Source: Lamellibrachia satsuma (lineage: Eukaryota > Annelida > Polychaeta > Sabellida > Siboglinidae). From it: a stretch of DNA of 64,000 nucleotides. Location: positions 7,879,411 to 7,943,410 of the forward strand of contig BSQZ01000028.1 of NCBI GenBank assembly GCA_033239005.1, given 5' to 3'. The notes under the pieces are model-generated. The model worked only from the letters and a program-made list of their open reading frames with translations. It ran no database searches and was not told the origin of the DNA. Shown one piece after another: positions 156-59,489 of the stretch; the first letter of the stretch is position 1, and each line of letters starts with the position of its first letter. The position numbers and the translations under genes are program-made.

Positions 156-419
156 ATAGAAAGTGGAGAAGGGAGCCATTGATTTAACAAGATTTGCCAT
201 CCAAGCCAAAGGCCCAGGCAAGTGGACAAGGAAGCCATTGGCTTATCGAGAGTCCATCTATGTGTAACCCACCCCCCTGAGATGTGTCAACCTTGTTTTT
301 AAACATATTCACGCTGCTAGCAGTTATACAATCCGTAGACAATTTGTTCCATTCATTTATTGTCCTCTGTGCGAACGAGTACTTCCTGATATCTAATCTA
401 CACTGATCCTTTACTAATT

Positions 420-2296
420 TTACCTCACGTCCTCTAGTTCTGATATCCTGAGTAAAAAAAATATATTTCTATCAATATTTTCATAACTATTCAATATCTT
501 AAAAACTTCAATGTGATCTCCTCTTAACCTCCTTGTCTCTAGAGTTGTTAAACCACATTCTTGCAGGTGTTCTTCATAACTAAGGTCTCTCAGTTTTGGA
601 ATAATTTTAGTTGCTCTCCTCTGTATGCGTTCAGGCATATTTATATCCTTCTTACGATATGGTCTCCACGCTTGTATACAGTATTCTAAATGAGGTCTAA
701 CTATTGCTTTATACAGAGGTATAATTAGCTTTTTTCTTGTATGCTATGTTTCTTCTAATCAACCCAAGAATTTGATTACCCTTTGAAGCTGCAATACCAC
801 ACTGCTCTGAAACTTTCATATCAGCGCTTATTGTAATCCCTAAGTCATTTTCTTTTACAGTAGTACCCAGAACAGTATCTCCCATTTTATAGTTTACATC
901 CACGTTCCCATGTCCTGTCTGTAGGCATTTACATTTCCCAAAATTTAACAACATCTGCCATTCCTCAGACCATTTCACTAATCTGTCTAGATCGTTTTGT
1001 AAATGTTGTTTATCACCATCAGTATTAACCTTTCTAAACAGTTTTGTGTCATCCGCAAATTTCAGTACGTTACTTGTTATACTGTCGTCCAAGTCATTGA
1101 TATAAATTAAGAATAATATAGGTCCTAATACTGATCCTTGAGGTATCCCACTCAAAACCGATTTCCAATTTGAAACTTCTCCATCTACTACAACACGTTG
1201 TCTTCTGTCAGTCAGCCATTGTTCTATCCAGTCAATTATGCTATCCCCAATACCATGGGCTTTTACTTTAAGTAGTAATCTTTGATATGGCACTTTGTCA
1301 AAAGCTTTCTAAAAATCTAAGTAGATAATATCTAGTGGCGATCCCTTGTCTATCCACTTAGTGATTTCTTCCGAAACACATAACATATTTGTTAAGCATG
1401 ACCTCGCTTTTAGGAATCCATGTTGAGATGAACTTAATAATTTATGCTTAACAAGGAAGTCCACCACATGGTCTTTAATTAACCTTTCTAATAATTTACA
1501 AATCACTGACGTTAAACTCACTGGTCTGTAATTCACTGACTTATTTCTCGAACCCTTTTTAAATAATCGTATGATGTTTGCTTCTTTCCATTCAAACGGA
1601 ACCACTCCCTCTTTTAATGACAAGTTGAATACTCTTGCAAGTGGTATACTAATTTGTTCTACTGTTTCCATTAGTAGTTTTAGAGTAATTCCATCCATTC
1701 CCGGTGATTTATTATCCTTCATTGCCTTTATTTTCTTAGCTACCATTTCTGGAGTTACAATTAATGGTCCTAAATAGTCAGATTTAGCCTCCTGAAATTT
1801 AGCATCTGGAACTGGTAATGAACTAATATCCTCTCTGAACTGAAGTAACCATTTAGGTCTTCCGCCATTAAAAACCCCTGTGATATTATATTTCCAGCAC
1901 TGTCTTCTAGAGGTCCAACCTTGTCTTGTGTATGTTTTGTTTACTCCTGACATATACATAAAAACTCTTGCCATCATTATTTATGTTACATGCTAGTTTT
2001 TGCTCATAGCTTCTTTTAGACTGTCTGATTTCAGTTGTAGCTACATTAAGTGCCTCTTTGTAATTTGCATAGTCTTCATCCTTTCTGGTACACCTATAAA
2101 CCCTCCACATAGTTTGCTTAAACACTATTTTTCTAATAGCTTCTTTTGACAAGTGTTTCTTCCTAGACAGTTTTCCTTGGTTTTTCAAGAGAACAAATTT
2201 ATCGATGATACTCTCAATTTCATATTTTAGAATATTCCAACATTCAGTTGTGGTCTTATTCATCAGCATTTTATTCCAATCTAGCTTTGCTCTCAT
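420..2296 (-). pseudogene. CR1 ORF2 reverse transcriptase domain, broken
   Basis: The RT is read in order on the minus strand as 2296-1907, 1977-1309, 1293-709 and 638-420, which are pieces of one ORF separated by frameshifts or stops. Recognisable RT motifs are NKSPGMDGI, NYRPVSLTS, YLDF (motif A), GIPQGSVLGPILFLIYINDL (motif B) and FADDTKLF (motif C with both catalytic aspartates). At about 1310 the glutamine codon expected after YLDF has become TAG, which splits the enzyme beside motif A. The thumb segment ends with the conserved VNMFK-type tail near 300. The RT active site itself is intact, so the element was disabled by stops and frameshifts rather than by active-site change. Confidence 0.85.
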
Positions 2297-2299
2297 ATC

Positions 2300-3091
2300 T
2301 TTATAGTTACCTTTGTGGAAGTTTCTCCTGTATGTTTTTTATTTTTACTTTTTGATTTTACATTGATGTCAAAATGTATTTGATTATGGTCACTGTTACA
2401 AGTATTTTTACATTGTCCACTAATTCATTTTGTGAAGACAAAACTACATCTAATACATTTTCTCCCCTGGTTGGTTCTAGCACATGCTGAGTAAGGAAGC
2501 TATCCTGAATTAAAAATAGAAATTGTTGGTCCTCACCCCCTGTACTCTCTAGAGATTTCTATTGTATGTGTCCATGGTTAAAATCTTCCATTCTGATACA
2601 TTCCACTTTACTAACTTCCTTTATAGAGTTTTGTATTTTTGTGTTATTCTCTTCATTTATGTTTGGACTTCGGTAAACTAATCCAATAGTTAAATTTGAA
2701 TTTCCTGAAACTATTTTGCACCAAATTCCCTTTCTAGTTTTATTTCATAAGCCTGAATAGATTCTTTAACATATAAAATAACTCCCCCTCCCCTTCTTCC
2801 TATTCGATCTCTCCTAAACATTATGTATCCTGTCAGTCCTAATTCAGCATCTGTTATGTCTGTGTTGGCCCTTGATTTGGTTATACCAATTATATGAGGG
2901 TCAATATCTTCTACCAAAATGTTTAATTCGTTTTTCTTATTTACTATACTCCTTGCATTTAAACACATGCACCTATAACCTGTTACAGAGATGTTTTCCG
3001 GACGTTTTATTATTGGTTTGTCTGTACTAGTGGCCTCTTGTTCTGCATGAGGCACCTCTAAGTAACCCCATTGCACTTCTAGTTTAAACAA
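2300..3091 (-). pseudogene. CR1 ORF2 APE-like endonuclease domain, frameshifted
   Basis: The frame 3091-2714 contains LNARSIVNKK, DPHIIGITKS and GRRGGGVILYVK, the usual start of an apurinic-endonuclease-type nuclease in CR1/L2/Jockey ORF2. The E of the usual ITET/ITES motif reads K here, so a metal-binding residue appears changed. Near 2713 the frame shifts. Downstream pieces in other frames still resemble the rest of the nuclease, with an EDFNHGHIQ-like segment near 2570 and an SDHNQ-like region near 2385, then lead into the RT. It is decayed and would not be functional. Confidence 0.75.
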
Positions 3092-3639
3092 AACAGAGGT
3101 ATAATTAGCTTTTTTCTATAAAAAAAATATTTGTTATGGTACCCATGCCACTATCTACTGCTGCTGAGAGATCGTCTGCAAATACTGCTGCCCCCTTTCC
3201 ACTTAGACGAAGCCCATCCTTCATGTACATATCAGCCTACCCAACAAAACTTCCCCACAAATTCCTCTTCCCTACATAGCTTCTGGATTAACATGTTAAT
3301 TGCCATCCCCTGACAATTTCGATATCTATGACCCCTCCTTCCTATTACTGGTAAAATCCCTGACAGTATTACCTGCTCAACTATGCTTTAGTGTTCTGAC
3401 CAATTGTTGCACCCTCCCTCTCTACATTATTTGTCCCTACATGTACTAAAACAGATCCATCCTTGCCCGAAACCACGATGTTTTCCCTCCAGTATCCCTC
3501 ACTCTCATCGGCTTCATTTTCGTCTCCTTCGCTCCTGTCTCCCCCACTCCCCTCACCTTTGCTCCAGTTGTCTTCCCTCCTGTTTCTTTCCCGTCTCCTT
3601 TCATCCCATCTCCTTACGTACTTCTCTTCTCAGCCTCCT

Positions 3640-4744: not shown

Positions 4745-4807
4745 TTCTTTTTAAACATATTGACACTGATAGCATAAATTACACAATCAGCAGACAATTT
4801 ATCCATG
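4745..4807 (-). mobile_element. CR1 ORF2 C-terminal remnant
   Basis: This 60-bp stretch matches the region coding for the VNMFK tail of the CR1 copy at about 293-350, with several substitutions. It is an isolated older fragment abutting the 29-bp minisatellite. Confidence 0.55.
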
Positions 4808-5552
4808 GCTGTAATGTGAGGTCACCACCCTACATGATTGTAATGTGAGGTCACCACCACCCTCCATGACTGTAATATGAGGTTACCATCCTCCATGACT
4901 AACGTGAGGTCACCACCCTCAATGACTGTAATGTAAGGTCACCACCCTCCATGGTTGTAATGTGAGGTCACCACCCTCCATGGTTCTAATGTGAGGTCAT
5001 TACCCTCCATGATTGTATGTGAGGTCACCACCCTCCATGACTGTAATATGAGGTTACCACCCTCCATGACTAATGTGAGGTCATCACCCTCAATGACTGT
5101 AATGTAAGGTCACCAACCCCCAGATTGTAATGTAAGGTCACCACCCTCCATGACTGTAATGTATGGTTGCCACCCTCCATGACTGTAATGTATGGTTGCC
5201 ACCCTCCATGACTTTAATGTGAGGTCACCACCCTCAACGACTGTAATGTGAGGTCAACAACCTCCAGATTGTAATGTGTGGTTGCCACCCTCCATGACTG
5301 TAATGTGAGGCCACCACCCTCCATGACTGTAATGTGAGGTTGACACCCTCCATGACTGTAATGTGAGGTTGCCACCCTCTAATATGCTCTATGACTGTAA
5401 TGTGAGGTTACCACCCTCTATGACTGTAATGTGAGGTTGCCAACCTCTATGACTGTAATGTGATGTTACCACCCTCCATGACTGTAATGTGAGGTTACCA
5501 CCCCCATGACTGTAATGTGAAACCACCACCCTCAATGACTGTTATGTGAGGT
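4803..5552. repeat. 29-bp minisatellite, about 25 copies
   Basis: Diverged units read tgactgtaatgtgaggtcac followed by caccctcca. Units vary in length by 1-3 bp and in several bases, so the array is fairly old. It ends about 50 bp downstream (minus strand) of the probable donor of the last visible exon of the Shroom-like gene. Confidence 0.9.
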
Positions 5553-5601
5553 CTATAATCTCTGAGAGTAGTTTTAGGGGCAGACATTTCAGTAGACACA
5601 C

Positions 5602-5755
5602 CTTCTGGTCATGCAGCGACGTGTCGGCATCACCAACATCCTTCAGAAGGTCATCGATCTTGTGACCTTCCTCCCGAATTTTGTTCTGCAGATGAGCGAC
5701 ACTAGGGGGCGACCAGTAGGGTGAGGACGCTGGCAGAGGTGACTGGGATGTGTTC
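5602..5755 (-). CDS. shroom: Shroom-like gene, exon with ASD2 coiled-coil segment
   Basis: The minus-strand exon starts after an acceptor ending TTCACTGCAG and is most likely closed by AAG|GTGTGT. Its 154 bases complete the codon split at the end of the 7637-6474 exon and finish in phase 0. It encodes SPYWSPPSVAHLQNKIREEG, then a charged helical stretch ending LHDQK. In vertebrate Shroom ASD2, the domain that binds Rho kinase, a YYSVSAPKAELLNKIKE-type segment lies at the same place, just after the TTMDLMEGLF motif matched in the previous exon. Open frame continues to a TAA at 5542 inside the minisatellite, but the donor and the premature end argue that splicing continues beyond the window. 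The distal ASD2 coiled coil is not visible here. Confidence 0.75.
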
Positions 5756-6473
5756 CTGCAGTGAACCACATAGGTCAGGTACATTGAACAATATATTATT
5801 CCGTGTACTCAGTTGTTGTAAATTAGAATCATCATAGTTCATAGAATAGGTCTTCAGAATCCAATTGTTGAGTTTCTTTTTGGGTCTGACCATACCACAG
5901 GTGTAACTGGTATATTTCAGTTGCAGGGTTATATTAAAAACAAATGTATACAATGAATGCCAATAAAAAAGATACATTAGGAAGGAGTCATGTAAAACAG
6001 TGTGGGTACTTTAGGAGTCATGTCAATGATAAAACAGTATGGGTACTTTAGGAGTCATGTCAATGATAAAACAGTGTGGATACATTAGGAGTCATGTCAA
6101 TGATAAAACAGTGTGGATACATTAGGAGTCATGTCAATGATAAACAGTGTGGATACATTAGGAGTCATGTTAATGATAAAACAGTGTGGATACATTAAAA
6201 GTCATGTCAATTATAAAACAGTGTGGATACATTAGGAGTCATGTCAATCTAATTACACATCTGTAATGAACTAATCATTCTATATTGATAGAAGAGTATA
6301 ACTTTGATGATACTTCCAAGTTCAGTAAGAAAATCAAAAGGCTTTCTAAACGAAATGAACAATGTGACAGTAGGAAGCAAGAGACATTTTCCATATATAT
6401 ATACCCTGCCTCAAATAAAAACAATTATTAAAGAAGCCGAATTGTAAATATCGACCAAGTGCTGAAGTCTCAC
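5756..6473. other. Intron between the two ASD2 exons
   Basis: A 718-bp intron (minus strand) with donor G|GTGAGA at 6473 and an acceptor ending at 5756. It contains the 37-bp minisatellite at 5981-6245 and a short (AT)n tract near 6396. I see nothing else. Confidence 0.7.
5981..6245. repeat. 37-bp minisatellite, about 7 copies
   Basis: Units read ggagtcatgtcaatgataaa followed by acagtgtggatacatta. Adjacent copies differ by a few substitutions; early units have gggtacttt instead of ggatacatt. The array is intronic. Confidence 0.9.
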
Positions 6474-7637
6474 CATATGTCCTGCACGTCACTTGACTGT
6501 TCACTTGACTGCTGCCTTAGTTCAGGTCGCGTGTTATTCCTCATGAGGATGCTAGGCCTCCGTGTCACGTCAACGGATGTGTCAAAGATGCCTGTCATGT
6601 AGTCAGTGGTCATTTTGAGCTCTGGTGATGGCAGAATGATGTCACACAGGTGTTTGTCGAGTTGTGACAGTTGCTGTACGAGGACAGCAGCCTGTTTCTC
6701 ACACTCCTGCTCCTCCTGGGACTTGTGGCGGCGGTGGTGGGGGACAATGGGTGGTGACCTGTCACCTGACAGTGTCTGGGAGTTAGTGTGTTCGCTGATG
6801 CTGGTGACGTCGATGTCAGGACTTCGACCCAGGGCGTCACTGTCTCCTAAGGATGAGTTCAGAGATTCATTACTTTTCTGTGCAACAACATTTTTGAGGC
6901 CAGCTGTTGTAGCACTATTTTTGGAACTGGTTGTTGCCATGGTGACCTCTGACAAAGTGTCTGCTGACCCTATGGGCTTGTAAGTGTGTGTGAATGCGCG
7001 CACATCTGACACACCGGTCTCATGCCAAGGCTTGGGAGTGGAGCGAGGGGAATGCTGTCTGTGAGGCATGGATGCCATGGCAAGATTGCCCGTACTTTCC
7101 CTTCGCTGTTGTGGGGGTGTTCCTGGTGATATTCGCAGTGAATTGTCTTGATATTCCAACTGCAAAAGGTTTTCATTTGATTTTCTTACAAGTGTCTCTC
7201 GTATTTGTGACACTTTTGGGTGCATGACAGGCGAGAGATTCTCCGCTGACAATGTCATCCTTGGTAACGTGTCAGGCACGTCTGTTGACACAGTGCCACG
7301 TAGGGATGATGACGCTGAGGATTTCTTCTCAAAGTTTGACAGCAATGCATGCACTGACAGTCTCTCCTCCATATCTCTCTCTGACTCAGACAGAGCGCTG
7401 CGTTCAGGAGACATGCTACGCACTCTGTGACTGGGGTTGACGACCTTGTGGCCGGACATCCACGGTGGTTCTGCATGCGAGTCTGGCCGGATCAGTGAAT
7501 GGTCAACATCGTCTTGCGTCAACATTGTGGCACTCACAACACAGACATTGCTTGTGTCATCACTGAGGTCGTGTTTGACCTGACCTGGCTGACTTCCACT
7601 GCTGCTTGTACGGAACTGAAATGACTCCCTGTGGTAA
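6474..7637 (-). CDS. shroom: Shroom-like gene, large exon with start of ASD2
   Basis: This 1164-base exon is bounded by TTCTGTTTCAG|T and ATATG|GTGAGA, and its phases match both neighbours. It encodes about 388 residues. Most are Ser/Thr-rich and probably disordered, with candidate phosphorylation sites such as RRHKSQEEQ. The last 80 carry KQAAVLVQQLSQLDKHLCDI, then ILPSPELK, then MTTDYMTGIFDTSVDV. From memory of the family, vertebrate Shroom ASD2 begins LVREIVHKDKSLADILDPDS, KMKTTMDLMEGLF at the same spacing, a clear match. The exon therefore holds the N-terminal edge of the Rho-kinase-binding ASD2. The first codon of the frame on the exon is not a start; the gene continues upstream. Confidence 0.85.
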
Positions 7638-7639
7638 CT

Positions 7640-8288
7640 GAAACAGAACAAACATGACTAGAACACAACTGACTGGAACAGAACACACATGACTAGATCA
7701 CAACTGACTGGAACAGAACACACATGACTAGATCACAACTGACTGTAACAGAACAAACATGACTAGATCACAACTGACTGAAACAGAACAAACATGACTG
7801 TAATAGAACAAACATGACTAGATCACAACTAACTGTAACAGAACAAACATGACTAGAACACAACTGACTGAAACAGAACAAACATGACTAGATCACAACT
7901 AACTGTAACAGAACAAACATGACTAGATCACAACTGACTGGAACAGAACAAACATGACTAGAACACAACTGACTGAAACAGAACAAACATGACTAGATCA
8001 CAACTGACTGGAACAGAACAAACATGACTACAACACAAATGACCGGAATAGAACAAACATGACTAGAACACAACTGACTGAAACAGAACAAACATGACTA
8101 GATCACAACTAACTGTAACAGAACAAACATGACTAGATCACAACTAACTGTAACAGAACAAACATGACTAGATCACAACTGACTGGAACAGAACAAACAT
8201 GACTAGAACACAACTGACTGAAACAGAACAAACATGACTACAACACAAATGACCGGAATAGAACAAACATGACTAGATCACAACAGAG
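7640..8288. repeat. 35-bp minisatellite carrying copies of a splice acceptor, about 18 copies
   Basis: The unit is catgactagatcacaactga followed by ctg(a/g/t)aacagaacaaa. The array starts directly at the acceptor of the 7637-6474 exon. On the minus strand each unit repeats TTTGTTCTGTTTCAG or a one-base variant (GTTCCAG, GTTACAG), which is the tract and AG of that exon's own 3' splice site. The array is intronic. Confidence 0.93.
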
Positions 8289-9654
8289 TTGAACAGATCT
8301 TTCCACCCATCGCCACACAATGGTACAATCCAACAGCTGTAGCCTCTCCTCAATACTGTTGTGATACTGGAAGGACAAACCTTCCACCAAATATTCTGAT
8401 GAGTTCTCAATCTTGCACCAATTAACAGAGATATTAGCAAGACAAGAAGAGCCTTACATAGGACAACACCTGAGAAACAACATTCTAGTGAAACTGCCAG
8501 CCAACGACTGATTCACTGTGGAACACAGGTATATTTCAAGACGGTGCCACACCCTGAATAATCAATGATAAAATCAATTATTTTAATGACCAGAACATAA
8601 CAGTCGACTCCACCCTATCACTACACGCAGGATTACGACCACATAGTCAAGACGTTGTCAGGTAACTGACTACCTGCTTGGCACAGATAACTACACACGT
8701 CCACCAAAAAACTGTGACTGTCACTACAAAAATAATGATCACTAATCTACCCAAAGAGGGTGTGGGTAAGAGACATTTGTGAACTGGTAACATGGCACTC
8801 TTTGAAAGGACAAAAGTGAAACAGAAGACCCTCAAGACAAGCATATAATTTGTAGTTTGATCTGGTGCTATGAATACTTACTGATGTGACTAACACACAT
8901 CTTCCTAGTGACTGCTACATGGCAATAATGATGCCTTTATTGATGAAATGTGGCTGAACGTTTGCTAAACTAGTTTGGTTTAATAATGTCATGTTCAGCC
9001 CCGGCTAAGACACATTAGAGTATTGATACCTACCCTAAGTCAACCTTATTTACCATTTATAACTCGGGAGTAATTAACAATTTGTCACAGTAAATCAAGA
9101 TGAAATAATTAGCTGATTCAGGAACTGTCGCGCTCCAAAAATTGTTTTATTTAACATTTATGGGAACTTGCTTTCACCTACTGATGTTTATACAGTGTTG
9201 TCTTAAATTATTTATTCATATATTTAAATTTGTTTTATTTGTCCTATTTATGTATTAGTCTTATGTACAGTGCTGCAAACTTTTATGGATATGGCACTAT
9301 ATAAAATAAATATTATTATTATATGGCCTTTTTAGGGTGTGTTGTTGAAGTAAATTTTGTCTTGCAAATATCACCTGTGAATTGTTTGCAAGGCCACAAC
9401 ACCAAACTGTGAACTAATACATAACCTTGAAATTATGCAGTTTAGTATGCGATGCCCTGAAATGGCTAATTAGTCATATCAATAGTTACTTGGATTACAG
9501 CTAAAACAGTGATGGGAATAACTGCAGCTTCTCAAAGGGTTCATTTCACATAGAGTGAGTTAATATTTCAGAATAAACAGAGTTTATGGAATTACATATT
9601 ATAGGTTAATATTAACACAGTTGCCAGTAAAAGGTAATTATTTGGTTTACTTAC
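8289..9654. other. Intron sequence, mostly featureless
   Basis: The 2-kb intron between the exons at 10377-9655 and 7637-6474 has donor TC|GTAAGT at 9654. Apart from the 35-bp array and a probable repeat tail near 9265-9325, I see no gene or repeat here. Confidence 0.6.
9265..9325 (+). mobile_element. Retroelement 3'-tail-like motif
   Basis: The motif cagtgctgcaaacttttatg, then ggcactatataaaataaata and (tat)n resembles the core found at the 3' end of many LINE- and SINE-type elements: a short GCGCT stem, TATATAAA, then TTA repeats. The body upstream is not recognisable. Confidence 0.4.
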
Positions 9655-10377
9655 GAGTTGCCTGGTTGAACAGGTTGTTCCTCAGTATCCAATTGTCTTG
9701 CATCCGTTCGATCAAAACACCCAGAAGGTAGCAGTGGTAGCAGCGGCTTATCGTCAATGAATACAGACCCACTTGAAGAAGGCACTGGTGACATCCGACT
9801 GGCGCCATCTGGTGTACTGATTGTTGCACTACTGTAACTGGCAGCAGCCGCAATGTTCATTTCTAATCTGAATGAGTCGGAGTAGCTGTCACTTTGGCAC
9901 ACGGACGGTTCCGTCTCTGCACGAGACCGAGGCTGCGGGGCAAGAGCCTCTTGCACTGTTGGAGGTTTGTCAACTGGCCGCGAGGTGGAGACACCAGTCT
10001 TGACATCAGGTGACAGTTTCAATGGATGTCGTCCAGGGCCAAGGAGACTGGCGTGTGACTGAGACAGACGGTAGGCCTGTTGACGCACCTGATTGGCATA
10101 TGAGTCTGCCTTGGGTGTGGAATCGTAGTCTCCACTCCAGCCACTACGCTCATTCTTTACAGCATCGCCCCCTGGTGGTGGTGGTGGTAAACTGTGACGA
10201 GGATCACCACGACAACTGGTGTCATGTTTCTGTCGGTAGTTCCTAGGTGGCAGTGTAGGTGGAGGCGATTCCTCAGCATCCTCCTCCGCCGAGTACGACT
10301 GTCTGATGGTCATGTGATAAGTAAACTTCTGACTCAGTTCGTTGGCCGACTTGACAGGTGATGAATTACTGCCGGAG
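9655..10377 (-). CDS. shroom: Shroom-like gene, proline/serine-rich exon
   Basis: The exon runs from CTGTTGCAG|C to AACTC|GTAAGT on the minus strand and is 723 bases. It joins the upstream exon (ending GG) and the downstream exon (starting T) without breaking the frame. It encodes about 241 residues starting SGSNSSPVKSANELSQKF. It includes the polyproline runs EESPPPTLPPRNYRQ and HSLPPPPPGG, possible EVH1- or SH3-type ligands, and a Ser/Thr-rich remainder. I recognise no folded domain. An internal ATG at 10313 is not needed, because the frame is open back to the acceptor. The first 29 bases of this exon and its acceptor have been copied about 29 times in the array next to it. Confidence 0.75.
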
Positions 10378-12288
10378 CTGCAACAGAAGTATTATCATAA
10401 ATGACTACAGTATCACTTGACAGGTGACGAATTACTGTCTGAGCTGCAACAGAAGTATCATCATAAATGACTACAGTATCACTTGACAGGTGACGAATTA
10501 CTGTCTGAGCTGCAACAGAAGTATCATCATAAATGACTACAGTATCACTTGACAGGTGACGAATTACTGTCTGAGCTGCAACAGAAGTATCGTCATAAAT
10601 GACTACAGTATCACTTGACAGGTGACGAATTACTGTCTGAGCTGCAACAGAAGTATCGTCATAAATGACTACAGTATCACTTGACAGGTGACGAATTACT
10701 GTGTGAGCTGCAACAGAAGTATCGTCATAAATGACTACAGTATCACTTGACAGGTGACGAATTACTGTGTGAGCTGCAACAGAAGTATCGTCATAAATGA
10801 CTACAGTATCACTTGACAGGTGACGAATTACTGTGTGAGCTGCAACAGAAGTATCGTCATAAATGACTACAGTATCACTTGACAGGTGACGAATTACTGT
10901 GTGAGCTGCAACAGAAGTATCGTCATAAATGACTACAGTATCACTTGACAGGTGACGAATTACTGTCTGAGCTGCAACAGAAGTATCGTCATAAATGACT
11001 ACAGTATCACTTGACAGGTGACGAATTACTGTCTGAGCTGCAACAGAAGTATCGTCATAAATGACTACAGTATCACTTGACAGGTGACGAATTACTGTCT
11101 GAGCTGCAACAGAAGTATCGTCATAAATGACTACAGTATCACTTGACAGGTGACGAATTACTGTCTGAGCTGCAACAGAAGTATCGTCATAAATGACTAC
11201 AGTATCACTTGACAGGTGACGAATTACTGTCTGAGCTGCAACAGAAGTATCGTCATAAATGACTACAGTATCACTTGACAGGTGACGAATTACTGTCTGA
11301 GCTGCAACAGAAGTATCATCATAAATGACTACAGTATCACTTGACAGGTGACGAATTACTGTCTGAGCTGCAACAGAAGTATCATCATAAATGACTACAG
11401 TATCACTTGACAGGTGACGAATTACTGTCTGAGCTGCAACAGAAGTATCATCATAAATGACTACAGTATCACTTGACAGGTGACGAATTACTGTCTGAGC
11501 TGCAACAGAAGTATCATCATAAATGACTACAGTATCACTTGACAGGTGACGAATTACTGTCTGAGCTGCAACAGAAGTATCATCATAAATGACTACAGTA
11601 TCACTTGACAGGTGACGAATTACTGTCTGAGCTGCAACAGAAGTATCATCATAAATGACTACAGTATCACTTGACAGGTGACGAATTACTGTCTGAGCTG
11701 CAACAGAAGTATCATCATAAATGACTACAGTATCACTTGACAGGTGACGAATTACTGCCGGAGCTGCAACAGAAGTATCATCATAAATGACTACAGTATC
11801 ACTTGACAGGTGACGAATTACTGTCTGAGCTGCAACAGAAGTATCATCATAAATGACTACAGTATCACTTGACAGGTGACGAATTACTGTCTGAGCTGCA
11901 ACAGAAGTATCATCATAACTGACTACAGTATCACTTGACAGGTGACGAATTACTGCCGGAGCTGCAACAGAAGTATCATCATAAATGACTACAGTATCAC
12001 TTGACAGGTGACGAATTACTGTCTGAGCTGCAACAGAAGTATCATCATAAATGACTACAGTATCACTTGACAGGTGACGAATTACTGTCTGAGCTGCAAC
12101 AGAAGTATCATCATAAATGACTACAGTATCACTTGACAGGTGACGAATTACTGTCTGAGCTGCAACAGAAGTATCATCATAAATGACTACAGTATCACTT
12201 GACAGGTGACGAATTACTGTCTGAGCTGCAACAGAAGTATCATCATAAATGACTACAGTATCACTTGACAGGTGACGAATTACGCAAC
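10378..12288. repeat. 66-bp minisatellite built from a 3' splice site and exon start, about 29 copies
   Basis: The unit is 66 bp. On the minus strand it reads gatactgtagtcatttatga, then tgatacttctgttgcag (intron-like part ending in a splice acceptor), then ctcagacagtaattcgtcac, ctgtcaagt (exon-like part). The exon at 10377-9655 begins ctccggcagtaattcatcac, ctgtcaagt directly after the same acceptor, so the unit spans the intron/exon border. Two internal units (near 11757 and 11955) carry the exon's own ccggca variant. Other variants run in blocks: catcat/cgtcat, and four successive units with ctgtgtgag. Because 66 is divisible by 3, the array is open over 676 codons, but that frame is not the exon frame and is not a gene. 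Confidence 0.97.
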
Positions 12289-12705
12289 AGTGTAAATAGA
12301 GCACCAGTGTACAGGGAGTGCCAGTGTAAGGAGGCACCAGTGTACAGAAAGCATCACAGTACACTGAAGCTTCTGAATAAAATGAGATTGGGACCGTGAC
12401 CCAGACAAATGGTGCACAACAACAAGCTCATAATGGGGAATGGTGCCACCGAGTATCAGCCAGAAACTAAGCAGAAACCATCAGATTTAAATACCTCCAC
12501 TTAGTGGTCCAGTGCAACCATGTAGCCTGGAGCCTTGGGAAGATAAGCTAAGTCTGACTCTCACAGTGCACATGACTTAGATGTATGTTGAGTCAATGAA
12601 ATCATAGCTTCAAACACAGGAACAAGCTCCAGTTTCTGTTGAATGTTTGTCTTCAAACCTCATAATTATACTGGCTGCATACTTTCCACATGTGCAGCCT
12701 GTCCC
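12289..12705. other. Intron sequence without recognisable features
   Basis: A short degenerate repeat (caccagtgtacag and variants, 12302-12360) abuts the 66-bp array. Otherwise I see nothing. Confidence 0.5.
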
Positions 12706-18179: not shown

Positions 18180-18425
18180 ACGTCTAACTGAGGCATGATC
18201 CCTCTACCTCTAATGGTCTGTTGGCAGCAGAATTGTCTCCACAGCCACTATTGGTCCCAGGTGAATGAGATATGAGGAGTAGAGGGTCTTTAAGAAAAAA
18301 ATCTGTGAAAGTGTTATGACACCAGATACCAGCCCTCAGGATCTGGTCTGTGGAATGCTAGGGAAGCACCCATAGACTGCACCTGGTGTGCCTTAAACTG
18401 ATGGAACTGCAGGAGTGTAGAAACA
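18180..18425 (-). pseudogene. DIRS/Ngaro-type tyrosine recombinase, C-terminal part, dead
   Basis: Minus-strand frames read FKAHQVQSMGASLAFH, then, after a frameshift, DQILRAGIWCHNTFTDFFLK, then YLIHLGPIVAVET. In DIRS-type recombinases the corresponding segments are KAHQVRA, (V)L.AG.W....TFT.FYLRD and LGPVVAAQ. The catalytic Arg of HxxR is Gln here and the nucleophilic Tyr is Phe, so this copy cannot recombine. The rest of the gene continues at 20384, on the other side of an inserted CR1 element. Confidence 0.75.
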
Positions 18426-18439
18426 CACTGGAAATGTAG

Positions 18440-20276
18440 AAGACTACACCAACTACAAAGAGGCACTTAACCTAGCTACAACTGAAATTAGAAAATCTAA
18501 AAGAACCTTTGAAAAAAAATTGGCAGGTAATATAAAAAATGACAGCAAGAGTTTCTATGCTTATGTAAGGAGTAAACAGAAAGTTCGAGATAAGGTCGGA
18601 CCACTGGAAAGCAACAGTGAAAACATAATTTCAGATGGGTTCCAAATGGCAGAGGTCCTGAATGAGTATTTCAGCTCAGTTTTTACCACAGAAGATATCA
18701 GCTCACTTCCAGTTCCATTGACTAAATTTGAGGGCAATACATCAGAATATTTAGGGCAGTTATTTGTAACTCCTGAAATGATAGCAAAGAAAATTAAGAA
18801 GATGAAAGATAATAAATCACCTGGAGTTGATGGGATACCACCAAAACTGCTAAAGGAAATTGTTGATCAAATTAGTACACCACTTGCAAACTTATTTAAC
18901 TTGTCACTAGAAGAAGGAATAGTTCCATCAGAATGGAAAGAAGCAAACATCACGCCGTTGTTTAAGAAGGGATCGAGGAAGAAGCCAGAAAATTACAGAC
19001 CAGTGAGTTTAACATCAGTTGTATGTAAATTACTTGAAACATTAATTAGAGACCACATGGTGGAATTCCTCATAAAACATAAATTAATAAATACATCTCA
19101 ACATGGATTCCTAAAAGCAAGGTCATGTCTAACCAATCTCTTATGTTTTTTAGAAGAAATTACAAATTGGGTAGATCACGGGTCACCAGTGGATGTTGTC
19201 TACTTAGATTTTCAGAAAGCTTTCGATAAAGTGCCACATCAAAGATTGTTACTTAAACTAACAGCCCATGGTATAGGCAATGATGTAATCAACTGGATAG
19301 AAAAGTGGCTTACACACAGAAGACAGAGAGTAATAGTAGATGGTAAGATTTCAAACTGGAAATCTGTTTCGAGTGGGGTACCACAGGGATCAGTGTTAGG
19401 CCCTATACTGTTTTTAATATATATATAAATGATTTGGAGGATGACATATCTAGCAAAGTACTCAAATTTGCAGATTACACAAAAGTATTCAGAAAGGTTA
19501 CTAATGATACAGATAAACAAAGTTTACAGGATGATGTAGAAAAATTAGTTAAATGGTCAGAAAAATGGCAAATGTTATTCAATTTTGGGAAGTGTAAATG
19601 TATACACATAGGACATGGAAATATGGACGAGGAATATAAAATGGGGGATGCTGTACTAGGTAGAACCACACAAGAAAAGGATTTAGGAGTAACATTTAAT
19701 GCTGACATGAAAGTTTCAGAGCAATGTGGGATTGCTGCTTCGAAAGGAAATGAAATTCTAGGCCTAATTAGGAGAACTATCACGTATAAGGAGAAACATC
19801 TAATTGTACCCCTGTACAAAGCAATAGTTAGACCACATTTGGAATATTGTATTTAAGCATGGAGGCCATATCGTAAAAAAGACATAGATAAGTTAGAAAG
19901 AATACAACGAAGAGCAACTAAGATGATTCCAGAATAAAGAGACCTTAGTTACGAAAGTCGCTTATTACAATGTGGTTTGACAACACTAGAGACCAGGAGA
20001 CTAAGAGGAGACCAAATAGAAGTGTTTAAAATAGTGAATGGTTATGAGGATGTTGATAGGAATATGTTCTTCAAACTTAAAGAAGGCAGTAGAACCAGAG
20101 GACACAAAGCAGCATTAGTTAAGGAGCAGTGTAGGTTGGACATGAGAAAGTACTCATTCTCACAGAGGGTGATAAATGAATGGAACAAACTGCCAAACGA
20201 TTGTGTTAATGCTAGTAGTGTGAATATGTTTAAAAATAGAATTGACAGATATCTGATAAGGGCGGGCTACACATAG
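18440..20276 (+). pseudogene. CR1 ORF2 reverse transcriptase, broken
   Basis: An open frame (18440-19428) covers the RT fingers and palm with NKSPGVDGI, NYRPVSLTS, YLDFQKAFDKVPH (motif A) and GVPQGSVLGPILFLIYI (motif B). At about 19425 two extra bases in an atatata run shift the frame and create TAA. The following frame (19434-19856) has FADYTKVF where copy 1 has FADDTKLF, so the second catalytic aspartate of motif C is Tyr. A further TAA at 19854 and a stop near 19935 separate the thumb segment (19977-20276), which ends NMFKNRIDRYLIRAGYT. It is closely related to the copy at 180-4025. Confidence 0.9.
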
Positions 20277-50647: not shown

Positions 50648-50758
50648 CCCACTAACAGGCCCCGGATCTCCTGTCTGTACAGGTTCCTGCCGTAGATCAC
50701 TGGCATTCCGTCGTCCTTACACTTCCCTCGGATCCTCTTTGTTGCCAGTATATTCCTC
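50648..50758 (-). CDS. shroom: Shroom-like gene, small basic exon
   Basis: A 111-base exon bounded by ACTAGTAGCAG|G and TTAGTGGG|GTAAGT. Phases fit the exons on either side (AG+G upstream, GG+C downstream), which means it can splice directly over the 40-kb intron to 10377. It encodes RNILATKRIRGKCKDDGMPV, then IYGRNLYRQEIRGLLVG, a compact conserved-looking segment unlike the disordered sequence around it. I do not recognise this motif with certainty. It lies between the long disordered region and ASD2. Confidence 0.7.
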
Positions 50759-55330: not shown

Positions 55331-55786
55331 ACCAGAGTTATATAATTAACCCCTACAGACTAACAGGTTGTATTTATGTCTGTGAGCCACATTAATGTGG
55401 CACTTTCCCCAAATGACATCTAAAAATTATTCTGTCAGCAAAATTAAACCTGCTTCAGCTGTCAACATGCAATGAGCCAGAAAGAGGTAACAGACACCTG
55501 TCAGCAACAGACACCTCTCTGTAACATAGACCTGCCTTTAATGGACACCTGTCTGTAATGGACACCTGTCTATACTGACTCTATAAAGAAAAAAAGATAT
55601 GTAAAATTTTATATATTTAAACAATTTGTTTGATCACACATAAACTTTTTTAAACTAGCAGCTGTTTTTGCTGTTTAATATTGTTTAAAAAATATATATT
55701 GTTTCTTGCCAATTGTGAAACTAAAAACAATTACTAAGAACATGTTAACAAAATGATGTGTTAAAGAACATGTAAAAGAAACTGAC
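55331..55786. other. Intron sequence after the giant exon
   Basis: Short repeats of gacacctgtct at 55493-55575. The donor AAG|GTCAGT is at 55786. Nothing else seen. Confidence 0.55.
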
Positions 55787-58700
55787 CTTTCGTTGTTGTA
55801 CTGTGGTTCTGTACTCAAGGTCATTACCCCAGGGGTGCAAGGGGGGACTGTACTCTTGTGTCGTGGGCGATGACACACTTGACACTGGTGACAGAGACAG
55901 GACACTACGGTCACCAGCAGGAATGTCAAGCAATGGTGGAGACAGTGAATCGTCACCAAAGGATGTGTCAGCCGCGGGGAACATCTTCTCAGCATCACGG
56001 AGTACCTGGTAGGAGCCAGATGACGCCCGGCCATGTCTGTGACATACTTGGAGGACGTCATGAGGCAGTGACTTCTTCATCGCCTCCTTGCGACTCTCGT
56101 CATCCACATTTGGTGCCACCTGCCAAGGCTCAACACTACCGCCACCGGTGCTGTCGATGCTGCTGTTACTTGTGCGTTTGCCAGTCTTCACTTCAAAGAA
56201 GCTGAGAACAGCTCGTTGCTGGAACTTCTTGAGCTGTGGGTCGGAGCTGCTGTGACGGTCCTCCATGCTTCCACTGCTGGTTGTGGAACGCGTTGACCCC
56301 GGACGCAGCAACACTTGTTGTTCTGGGCTGTCTACGAACACATCGGAATCTGCCGAAATATGCTTCAGTGTATCGTTATTGTGTGGTGGTGCAGTCTCCA
56401 TTGGGTCAGAGGAGCGATGGGTGTGCTTTGTGGCGGCAGAGTGGAAGTGATGTTGATCAGATGTCTTACGATAGGAACTGCTGGCTGGATCACACTCCCC
56501 GCTCCTTCCTGAATATATATCCTTCATCCTAGGTCGCTCCTTAGTTTGATCCTTCATTGGTCGGATCTGTTCTGATGTTGTACGTTTAAGTTTGCTCGGA
56601 GCGCCCACCTTCCGGGGCATGCCTCGCTGCTCCCAATCCCGACGAGCTTCCTCTGCAATCTTCTGTGTGTCCACGCTCGACTTTGTTCCACCCCAGAGGG
56701 AGCCAACAAAGTCTTTGACGCGTCGTGTGATTTTAGATGATGAGTCTAGTGATGACTGCCCCTTGTGTCCTGTTGTTGGTGGTGGTGATGTCTTCTGTTT
56801 CAGCATGTGGGACGTTGACACAGACCGACCGTGCATTGCTTTGTGGAACCTTTCCGAAACAGGACGATTATGATCATCACATGTACCATAGGCTTTCCGC
56901 AAGGACATATTCTGCATCCTCTCCCAACTCTTGGGTTCTGGCTCTGTCCACTCCGAGCTGCGGGGCTCAGCCTCTGTTGCTGAGCTGTCATTACGCACAG
57001 TGCTGGAAGCATCAGGTACCTCATTCATGAAAGACTGACTCGTCGGAGCGAGGACTTCGTGGGTGTCGGGCAGTGATGACAGTGACTCCATCTTGCGGGG
57101 CTGAGCAAAGCTGAAGTTGCTGTGCTGTTGTAGACGCACCCCGTAGAACTCCTGCGACAGCTTGCGTAGCATTTGAGTTTGACTTGGTGAATGCTCGTGT
57201 ATCTGGGCGAGAAGGTCATCGTGCAGTGGTGATAGCTGTTGTGTAGTGTCTATCTGCGGGGACACTTGTGACCACTGCAATGTCACACCACCACTGTCCT
57301 TGGATGTTGGATTTTTCACAGCATGTATAGAGGGTTGAAAGGTATCACCGAGTGAAGATGACGGCAATGAGGTGTGTTCCATTGACGTGTTGTGTGTCCC
57401 AGTGGCACCGCTCAGTGAGGGTGAATGTGTGTGGAGAAATGTGGTCCTTGCAGTCGCACCGATGGCAGATGGTGCTGTATAGTGCATTGGTGTTGTGAGT
57501 GTTGTGTTTCTAGCATTGACGTCTAGTGGGGTGTGTGCGATTACCGTCTGTTGCCCACTGTCTTTCAAACTATGCATTTGTCTCGTAGGATCATCTGTGA
57601 TTGGTGCATTGTCACAGAATGACTCAACCCTGCCCTTTGGTGAGGGACTGGTAGACGCCTCTTTCATGCCTTTCTTCGGAGGTATGTCACTGGTTGACCT
57701 TGGTGACTGAATGGCAACAGTCTGTGACATGGATGACTTCAGATCATGTGACACGACGTCACCTGTGTCAGTGTCTTCGGTCTGTGTACCAGTGTTGTAA
57801 TACGGCTTGCTTGATCGCACAACGTATGTCACACTAACATTACGGCTGCTGAGTATCTCCGGCGGAAGAGATGTGGGTGATGTAAGTGATGCCACCTGGT
57901 TGAATGTGTCTGTGGCTGAACGCAGACGCGTTGTCACTCTGTGAGGGGGGGTTGAGTCAGGCGGGATGGTGGCCCTATCATCTTCACACGACTGAACACT
58001 TGCGCTGTAGTTAGGATGACAACTGCTATCCCATGATGCACTGGTGTGAGTGTCTCTGCTCCACTGACACGGGAGGTGACAACTAGTTGCAGTGAAGACT
58101 GTGACGTCTCGCTCAGGTGGAGATGGTACTGTGTAGTCCTTGTTGTCACGCAGTATACCTTCGTGGTCATAGCGAGGGAATGACCTCTCCGTGTGGAAGT
58201 TCTTCAGCTGACTATCAGAGGTCATGTGAGCAGCAACAGCCTCCAGCACCTGACCCGTTGCTAACTGCTTATGCGACTTAACGCCATTCTCTTCTAGATG
58301 ACGCCTCAGGGAGTCAGATGTCACCTTCTCGTCGATGTGCCTCAGACGTGGCTGGTAAACCATCTTGTTGGGCTTCATTGGAAACTCTCCACTAGAGGTC
58401 GTGGTTGTAGGTTCTGACCATGAGTTGGTGCGACTGCTTGAGCAGACACTCGTAGTGTCGTCCTGTGCCTGGTTGGCTGCAGTCACCGGCCACGATGGAT
58501 ACTTCTCATGGGTCTGGCCAATACGGGTGTACTTGAGACTAGAACTGTCTCGGACAGGAGGCAATGGAGGTGAGGGCGCAGTGTCTGACGGGGCAAACTG
58601 TCCACTGTATGGAATGTCTCCAGTGTGCAGGGAAGCACCCAGTGTTTGGTGTGGTTGAGTCAGGATGCTCTGGTCATAGTTGGAGGAATGTTTCGAGTGA

Positions 58701-59249
58701 AGAGATGAGGTTGAATGTGTCATCATTGAATCTGTGCTAGTGTAACACTCGCTGTGTCTGGAATGTGGTGATCCGTCCAATCCAAGTGGCTCAAACGGCT
58801 GCTGTCGGAGGCTCCCTCTGGTGATTGGGGGGACAACACTCCAGTGTCTGTTCTTCCTTTGCAGTTCGTGGGGCCGCACAACCGCGATGGGACTAGACTT
58901 GGGAGTGCTGCCACCTTGTGTCCAGGGAGCAGCTGACCGAACCATCCCCTGGTAGCCAGAATGTGGCATGGCTGACTCTGATGAACATCTCAAGTCCATT
59001 GTCTCGTTGCCACATTGTTGGAAGTTTGGTGCAGAGTTTGAGCCCTGCATGTTGCTGCAGTTAATCAACCAAGACGACCTCGCAAGTACATGTTGACTGG
59101 GCAAAGCTGACGGCACCTGTCGGCCACACTTTAGCTGTGACGTGTAACCTTCACTCTGCTGCTGCCCTCTGGTGGCTGATGATGAAGGATCACAGGTGGC
59201 ACCACTGTCTGGTGGCCATGCTGACGTTCTGTTGGCCGTTGAATGTAAA
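55787..59249 (-). CDS. shroom: Shroom-like gene, giant 3.46-kb exon
   Basis: The exon runs from TTGCATTACAG|T to CGAAAG|GTCAGT on the minus strand and encodes about 1,154 residues in one open frame. It is Ser/Thr/Pro/His-rich and probably disordered. It has a Pro cluster (TAPSPPLPPVRDSSS, about residue 230), a compact basic segment with ITRRVKDFVGSLWGGTKS then AEEARRDWEQRG (about residues 835-870), a KLKRTTSEQIRP motif soon after, and FEVKTGKR near residue 1020. Shroom proteins carry an actin-binding ASD1 in this part; the basic RTTSEQ stretch is the best candidate but I cannot confirm it. The ATG at 59260 lies in the acceptor region, and the phase-1 start of the exon implies upstream coding exons. 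Identity as the same gene rests on matching splice phases through to the ASD2 exons. Confidence 0.75.
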
Positions 59250-59489
59250 CTGTAATGCAAAAATAAATAATTATGTACTGATCAATGGCTATTACAAATT
59301 ATATTGAGAAGTATGATTACTAAAGTGGGTTGCACATTCATCTTCAACTGTTGCTGTTTTTAGTTTTTGTAGGATGGAACATTCAATAAATCTATTTGTA
59401 TTAAACAGTTTCACATGAAAGATAGTTTAACATATATCATTCAGAATTTGTTATCCAGCTTGTGTTCAGCTAGCTAGCAAATATTAATG
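59250..59489. other. Intron upstream of the giant exon
   Basis: AT-rich; no feature besides the acceptor. Confidence 0.5.

Follow-up and report, generated by a model that had tools for sequence, protein, structure and literature searches.

Tandem copies of a splice acceptor at an exon border of a putative Shroom-like gene in Lamellibrachia satsuma

Minisatellites made of tandem copies of exon borders have been described in amphioxus under the name of mirages, with cases at Adh3, the globins BflGb6 and BflGb9, troponin C and PGBD5 (PMC3087553, PMC3902484). In the accounts given there, mirages vary in length and splicing is reported to be undisturbed (PMC3087553, PMC3902484), and unit lengths of 10-160 bp are given (PMC3087553). 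We analyzed a window of 64,000 nucleotides of the annelid Lamellibrachia satsuma (contig BSQZ01000028.1), in which a 66-bp tandem array on the minus strand multiplies the 3' splice site (acceptor) of an exon, hereafter E1, of a putative cell-shape gene of the Shroom-like type. Our assessment, at a probability of roughly 0.78, is that this array is a near-neutral minisatellite of the mirage kind, at which the exon-proximal acceptor would be chosen through its exon context.

Compared with the amphioxus cases as described, which include one on the acceptor side, the unit of the E1 array likewise spans the intron-exon border (37 bp of intron and 29 bp of exon), its 66 bp fall within the mirage range of 10-160 bp, and splice signals are kept in many units, here in all 28 upstream acceptor copies (decoys). 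The amphioxus globin and PGBD5 mirages are reported with 3-7 units, in contrast to 28 decoys at E1 and 18 at the downstream exon E2. Length instability and normal splicing are reported for amphioxus, whereas the E1 array is known from genomic sequence alone. The published mirages considered here all come from cephalochordates; searches of the present assembly gave no GFP-family match, as in the control genomes, and no COX1 match. In human ABCA7, an intronic variable number tandem repeat (VNTR) adjoins an exon and has a 25-bp unit that begins with a splice donor and can be retained, as reported in PMC5954066. It resembles the E1 array in placing splice-site units beside an exon, but it lies on the donor side, has a shorter unit and comes with a measured effect of length on how often the next exon is skipped. 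Tandem duplication is also described as a route of intron gain, in potato RdRp (PMC4974935) and in a model presented in PMC3087553. Such duplications carry splice signals along as the E1 array does, but they make a new intron, whereas the E1 array multiplies an existing border.

Structure of the 66-bp array and of the gene it borders

10378..12283, minus strand: 66-bp tandem array, with 28 complete units, an incomplete one at the 5' end and 28 decoy acceptors
9655..10377, minus strand: exon E1 of 723 nt, starting and ending in phase 2, with donor GTAAGT; the first 29 bp correspond to the exonic part of the unit
6474..7637, minus strand: exon E2 of 1164 nt, likewise starting and ending in phase 2; carries the start of the ASD2 domain
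5602..5755, minus strand: exon E3, 154 nt; ASD2 continues
50648..50758, minus strand: probable upstream exon, read by eye, in a phase compatible with E1 (GG/C)

Tandem Repeats Finder reported the repeat at 10349-12283 with a period of 66, 29.3 copies and 99% matches. When the array is phased on the exon start, positions 12225-10378 resolve into 28 full units that deviate from the consensus at 0-3 bases each. The 5' end is formed by a partial unit at 12283-12226 whose first 8 bases are non-repeat. A degenerate 17-bp repeat precedes this end, which begins within the exonic part. Acceptors on the minus strand therefore lie at 10377+66n (n=0-28), the real site being n=0 and the decoys n=1-28. An earlier note on this DNA had traced the unit to the exon head and to the 3' splice site of the gene itself, with the array running into the real exon, and this agrees with our analysis of the unit as 29 bp of exon head plus 37 bp of intron tail. 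The note spoke of about 29 decoys; the row of repeats stands, and the exact count is slightly lower, at 28 decoys plus the real site. It further equated the 29 bp of the unit with the first 29 bases of the exon. Origin from the exon head holds, but full identity does not, as 26 of the 29 exon bases agree with the array consensus and 3 differ. Two of these three exon-specific bases, forming the CCGGCA of the exon, do occur in two internal units (starting at 11961 and 11763), as had been noted.

All 28 decoys keep the ending ACTTCTGTTGCAG, and a 13-base acceptor core is common to the real and decoy sites (29/29). From each decoy the frame reads G-S-x-SNSSPVK, 10 residues, and then stops, so that the in-frame stop claimed for every copy is present in 28 of 28, while the frame from the real acceptor at 10377 stays open for 241 codons to the end of the exon. 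Across the 28 units, variation is confined to 6 of 66 positions. Differences grow with the distance between units, from 0.56 at lag 1 to 1.88 at lag 20. The variants GAC, in 11 units, and CAC, in 4, occur as unbroken runs, and both patterns point to stepwise local duplication. A search of the whole assembly (735 Mb, 279 contigs), which leaves out very common words, returned 29 matches to the unit, all of them at this locus. Twenty-eight near-identical units cannot be chance, and for an array edge to meet an exon border somewhere in the L. satsuma genome is not rare. One frame of the unit lacks stops, and a stop-free stretch of 697 codons also crosses the array (10334-12427, minus strand) in a frame other than that of the exon. 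We rejected it as an array-coded protein because it is not in the exon's frame and ends just inside the exon; such a stretch is likely to misguide gene predictors.

E1 and E2 are conserved. E1 is matched by the predicted proteins P0005 and P0006 of two relatives (60% and 59% in alignment) and E2 by P0001-P0004 (61-71%), and it would fit that P0003 (E2) and P0005 (E1) represent one gene in one relative. P0005 reads FCCSS at the exon start, the same as the intron-exon junction of E1 here, which fits a predicted conservation of the E1 acceptor in relatives. E1, E2 and E3 all have GT donors. As the earlier note had proposed, a Shroom-type ASD2 domain lies downstream: the terminal part of E2, spliced to E3, matches the Pfam profile with 29.1 bits against a cut-off of 26.4, over profile positions 2-95 of 289. 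E2 by itself stays below the cut-off (21.8 bits), and a scan of the whole assembly for ASD2 gave a single match, which is E2 (24.1 bits). The remainder of ASD2 beyond profile positions 2-95 was searched for and not located, and a crude motif scan of a 264-kb region found no PDZ domain, the 5' end of the gene lying outside the model. Because of the partial ASD2 and the lack of a located PDZ domain, we call the gene Shroom-like, an assignment that stays provisional. On the 5' side, position 50758 had been taken as the junction to E1, but the upstream exon begins at that base and has its donor near 50648/50647 (GG/GTAAGT). An exon-like open reading frame at 55748-59281 seems to end in phase 0 (AAG/GTCAGT), whereas the exon at 50758 needs phase 2, so the link between the two is doubtful in the gene model.

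The same plan recurs at E2, in an array that the earlier note had overlooked:

7638..8297, minus strand: second array, mostly of 35-bp units, ending at the E2 acceptor (7637)

There are 18 upstream copies of the E2 acceptor, with AG in 16 and GG in 2. Each copy runs into a stop within 1-46 residues, and from the real acceptor at 7637 the frame is open for 388 codons. In P0001 and P0003 the translated stretch just upstream of E2 shows no 35-bp repetition (judged by eye at the protein level), which could make the second array a feature of this lineage only. In total, 2 of 5 gene acceptors end an array, and for the other three placeable acceptors the nearest array ends lie 216 to 277 bp away. The intron before E3 holds a 37-bp array (5971-6248, minus strand) that ends 216 bp from the acceptor, and a 29-bp array (4802-5553, minus strand) starts 49 bp past the E3 donor, with a unit that includes the acceptor-like TCACATTACAG.

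Splice-site repeats at MCM and CCT exons

For a rough frequency of such repeats, two unrelated conserved families were surveyed, and every returned exon match was examined (MCM 27/27, CCT/Cpn60 49/49). Splice sites were placed by eye from GT/AG and frame, with human MCM and CCT proteins as a guide. Repeats that include exon bases together with the splice site were found in 7 of the 76 exon matches, which is to be read as a rough rate since matches are not exactly exons and the true borders of partial matches may fall outside the checked area. The seven are:

L034: donor array, 67-bp unit with 31 bp of exon
L038: donor array, 72-bp unit with 58 bp of exon
L037: donor array, 23-bp unit with 16 bp of exon
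L061: donor array, 67-bp unit with 40 bp of exon
L073: donor array, 25-bp unit with 9-16 bp of exon
L075: acceptor array, 55-bp unit with 19 bp of exon
L058: acceptor, 55-bp duplication of 1.9 copies with about 43 bp of exon

Arrays at the L031 donor and the L037 acceptor merely abut the border and are outside the 7/76. Decoy donors in these arrays keep their GT to varying degrees. At L038, in an MCM gene (array at 415-1445), GT is kept in 13 of 13 decoys, and a stop replaces the GAG of the real exon in 9 of the 13 copies (7 by pattern, 2 by eye). Both decoys at L061 keep GT, while it is lost in 2 of 7 decoys at L034 and in 1 of 4 matched decoys at L073, and at L037 just 2 of 7 matched decoys retain it. 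Two further CCT exon matches (L066 and L067) have identical score and extent and lie 6.8 kb apart on one contig, which suggests a local duplication.

These data suggest that splice-site repeats are common in the genes of this animal. The kind of feature is already known; what is new here is a rough frequency within one genome, and we found no genome-wide count of mirages in the literature searched, which was limited to open-licence papers. We put forward only tentatively, as a possibility more doubtful than not, that this is a genome-wide property, in which about one exon in ten would be accompanied by repeats of its own donor or acceptor, with as many as 28 one after another, and the spliceosome would routinely take the exon-proximal copy. 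If so, the genome would hold thousands of natural contests between splice sites of equal strength, set apart by position and exon context only, and length alleles could tune exon inclusion. If about one in ten exons carries such repeats, a single RNA data set would offer many comparisons at fixed site strength, and minisatellites would be tolerated on many exon borders without visibly destroying genes. With rows of equal splice sites, RNA sequencing could address directly the classic question of how one site is chosen among equals.

Acceptor choice and rival explanations

The most likely origin of the E1 array is tandem duplication of a stretch straddling the intron-exon border, followed by expansion through unequal exchange or slippage, with the original acceptor and exon remaining intact at the exon-side end. 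Since the real and decoy sites share the core and have similar scores (5.65 for the real acceptor and 5.78 for the single decoy scored, with a simple home-made matrix), site strength does not distinguish the real acceptor. What sets it apart is one upstream base (GATAAT versus GATGAT or GACGAT), at most 3 bases of the exon head, and the following exon with its donor. We infer, from the genomic DNA of one assembly as for all statements on splicing made here, that the spliceosome most likely takes the exon-proximal copy by exon definition, because this is the sole copy joined to the real exon with its downstream donor. The 28 decoys would then probably be spliced out with the intron. If a decoy were occasionally used, it would lead to an early stop and decay of the mRNA; a message with such an early stop is usually degraded.

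The possibility that the decoys instead compete with the real acceptor, such that longer arrays yield more decay or more truncated protein lacking ASD2 and thus act as a length-dependent brake on the gene, is unlikely in our assessment. The full 13-base core is kept and every decoy frame stops after 10 residues, as competition would have it, but for amphioxus mirages undisturbed splicing is reported (PMC3087553, PMC3902484), and since nearly any intronic sequence should contain stops, the decoy stops are no evidence of function. The truncated protein that the earlier note expected from decoy use is thus left unsupported. Selection on the decoys was also considered and is not supported, because the core is invariant in 28 units in which just 6 of 66 positions vary overall. 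Alternatively, the array could weaken recognition of E1, so that longer alleles skip it. Since E1 has phase 2 at both ends, skipping its 723 nt keeps the frame; 241 residues would be lost and ASD2 kept, giving an isoform switch tuned by length. E2 has the same symmetry, and in human ABCA7 the skipping of exon 19 is reported to rise with the length of the donor-unit VNTR (PMC5954066). Yet the symmetric phase is a precondition, and it is all that is seen here, and the amphioxus cases are reported as being without effect (PMC3087553, PMC3902484); we regard this switch as quite improbable. An assembly artefact, in the array as such or in its copy number, is very improbable. Near-identical units are hard to assemble and a single assembly is at hand, but the variants form ordered runs inside the array, and elsewhere in the genome repeats built to this plan have diverged units.

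The near-neutral mirage reading has several points against it. The use of 10377 is read from frame and conservation, the neutrality of the array is an assumption, and the ABCA7 case as reported (PMC5954066) shows that a splice-site VNTR can alter splicing with its length. In addition, the placement of array ends hints that they meet splice sites beyond chance, which plain chance overlap would not explain. The chance of at least 2 of 5 gene acceptors ending an array is 0.004 (arrays of at least 200 bp) to 0.013 (all arrays), a figure computed post hoc with a script whose de-duplication left out the row ending at E2 and gave 158 bp for it. At the MCM loci, array edges coincide with the border at 4 donors and 1 acceptor versus about 1 each expected, two of these five edges merely abutting it; P is 0.019 for the donors, 0.63 for the acceptors and 0.052 for both together.

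Special targeting of splice sites by arrays is nevertheless left unproven, because neither motif enrichment nor the CCT counts show an excess. In the 264-kb region, units with acceptor-like motifs occur in 18 of 73 arrays (plus strand) and 11 of 73 (minus strand), versus 13.2 expected per strand from shuffled units, and such motifs are thus not enriched. Among 13 arrays at the CCT loci, counted by eye, 4 span a border, one stops at a distance of 30 bp from a match and 7 have an end 72-128 bp away from one, with no excess of array ends at borders. Tandem repeats make up about 33% of the 264-kb region and 39% of the 64-kb window. This share, the same plan at E2 and the 7/76 MCM and CCT matches point to a general by-product of a repeat-rich genome. 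The simplest account is that chance overlap in such a genome largely suffices, borders being caught by chance and tolerated while the exon-proximal site is used.

Other elements in and near the window

Two stretches resemble broken retrotransposons of the LINE type, at 184-3115 (minus strand) and 18421-20276 (plus strand), and a reverse transcriptase domain was confirmed for the latter only. About 28-70 kb below the window, six loci (L010-L014 and L028) belong to a long array of tandem units, each roughly 1.6 kb, in which open frames recur. Neither the window nor L010 and L011 gave any Rfam match at gathering scores. Two other loci (L025-L026) contain open frames that, by eye, resemble a polinton- or adintovirus-like element.
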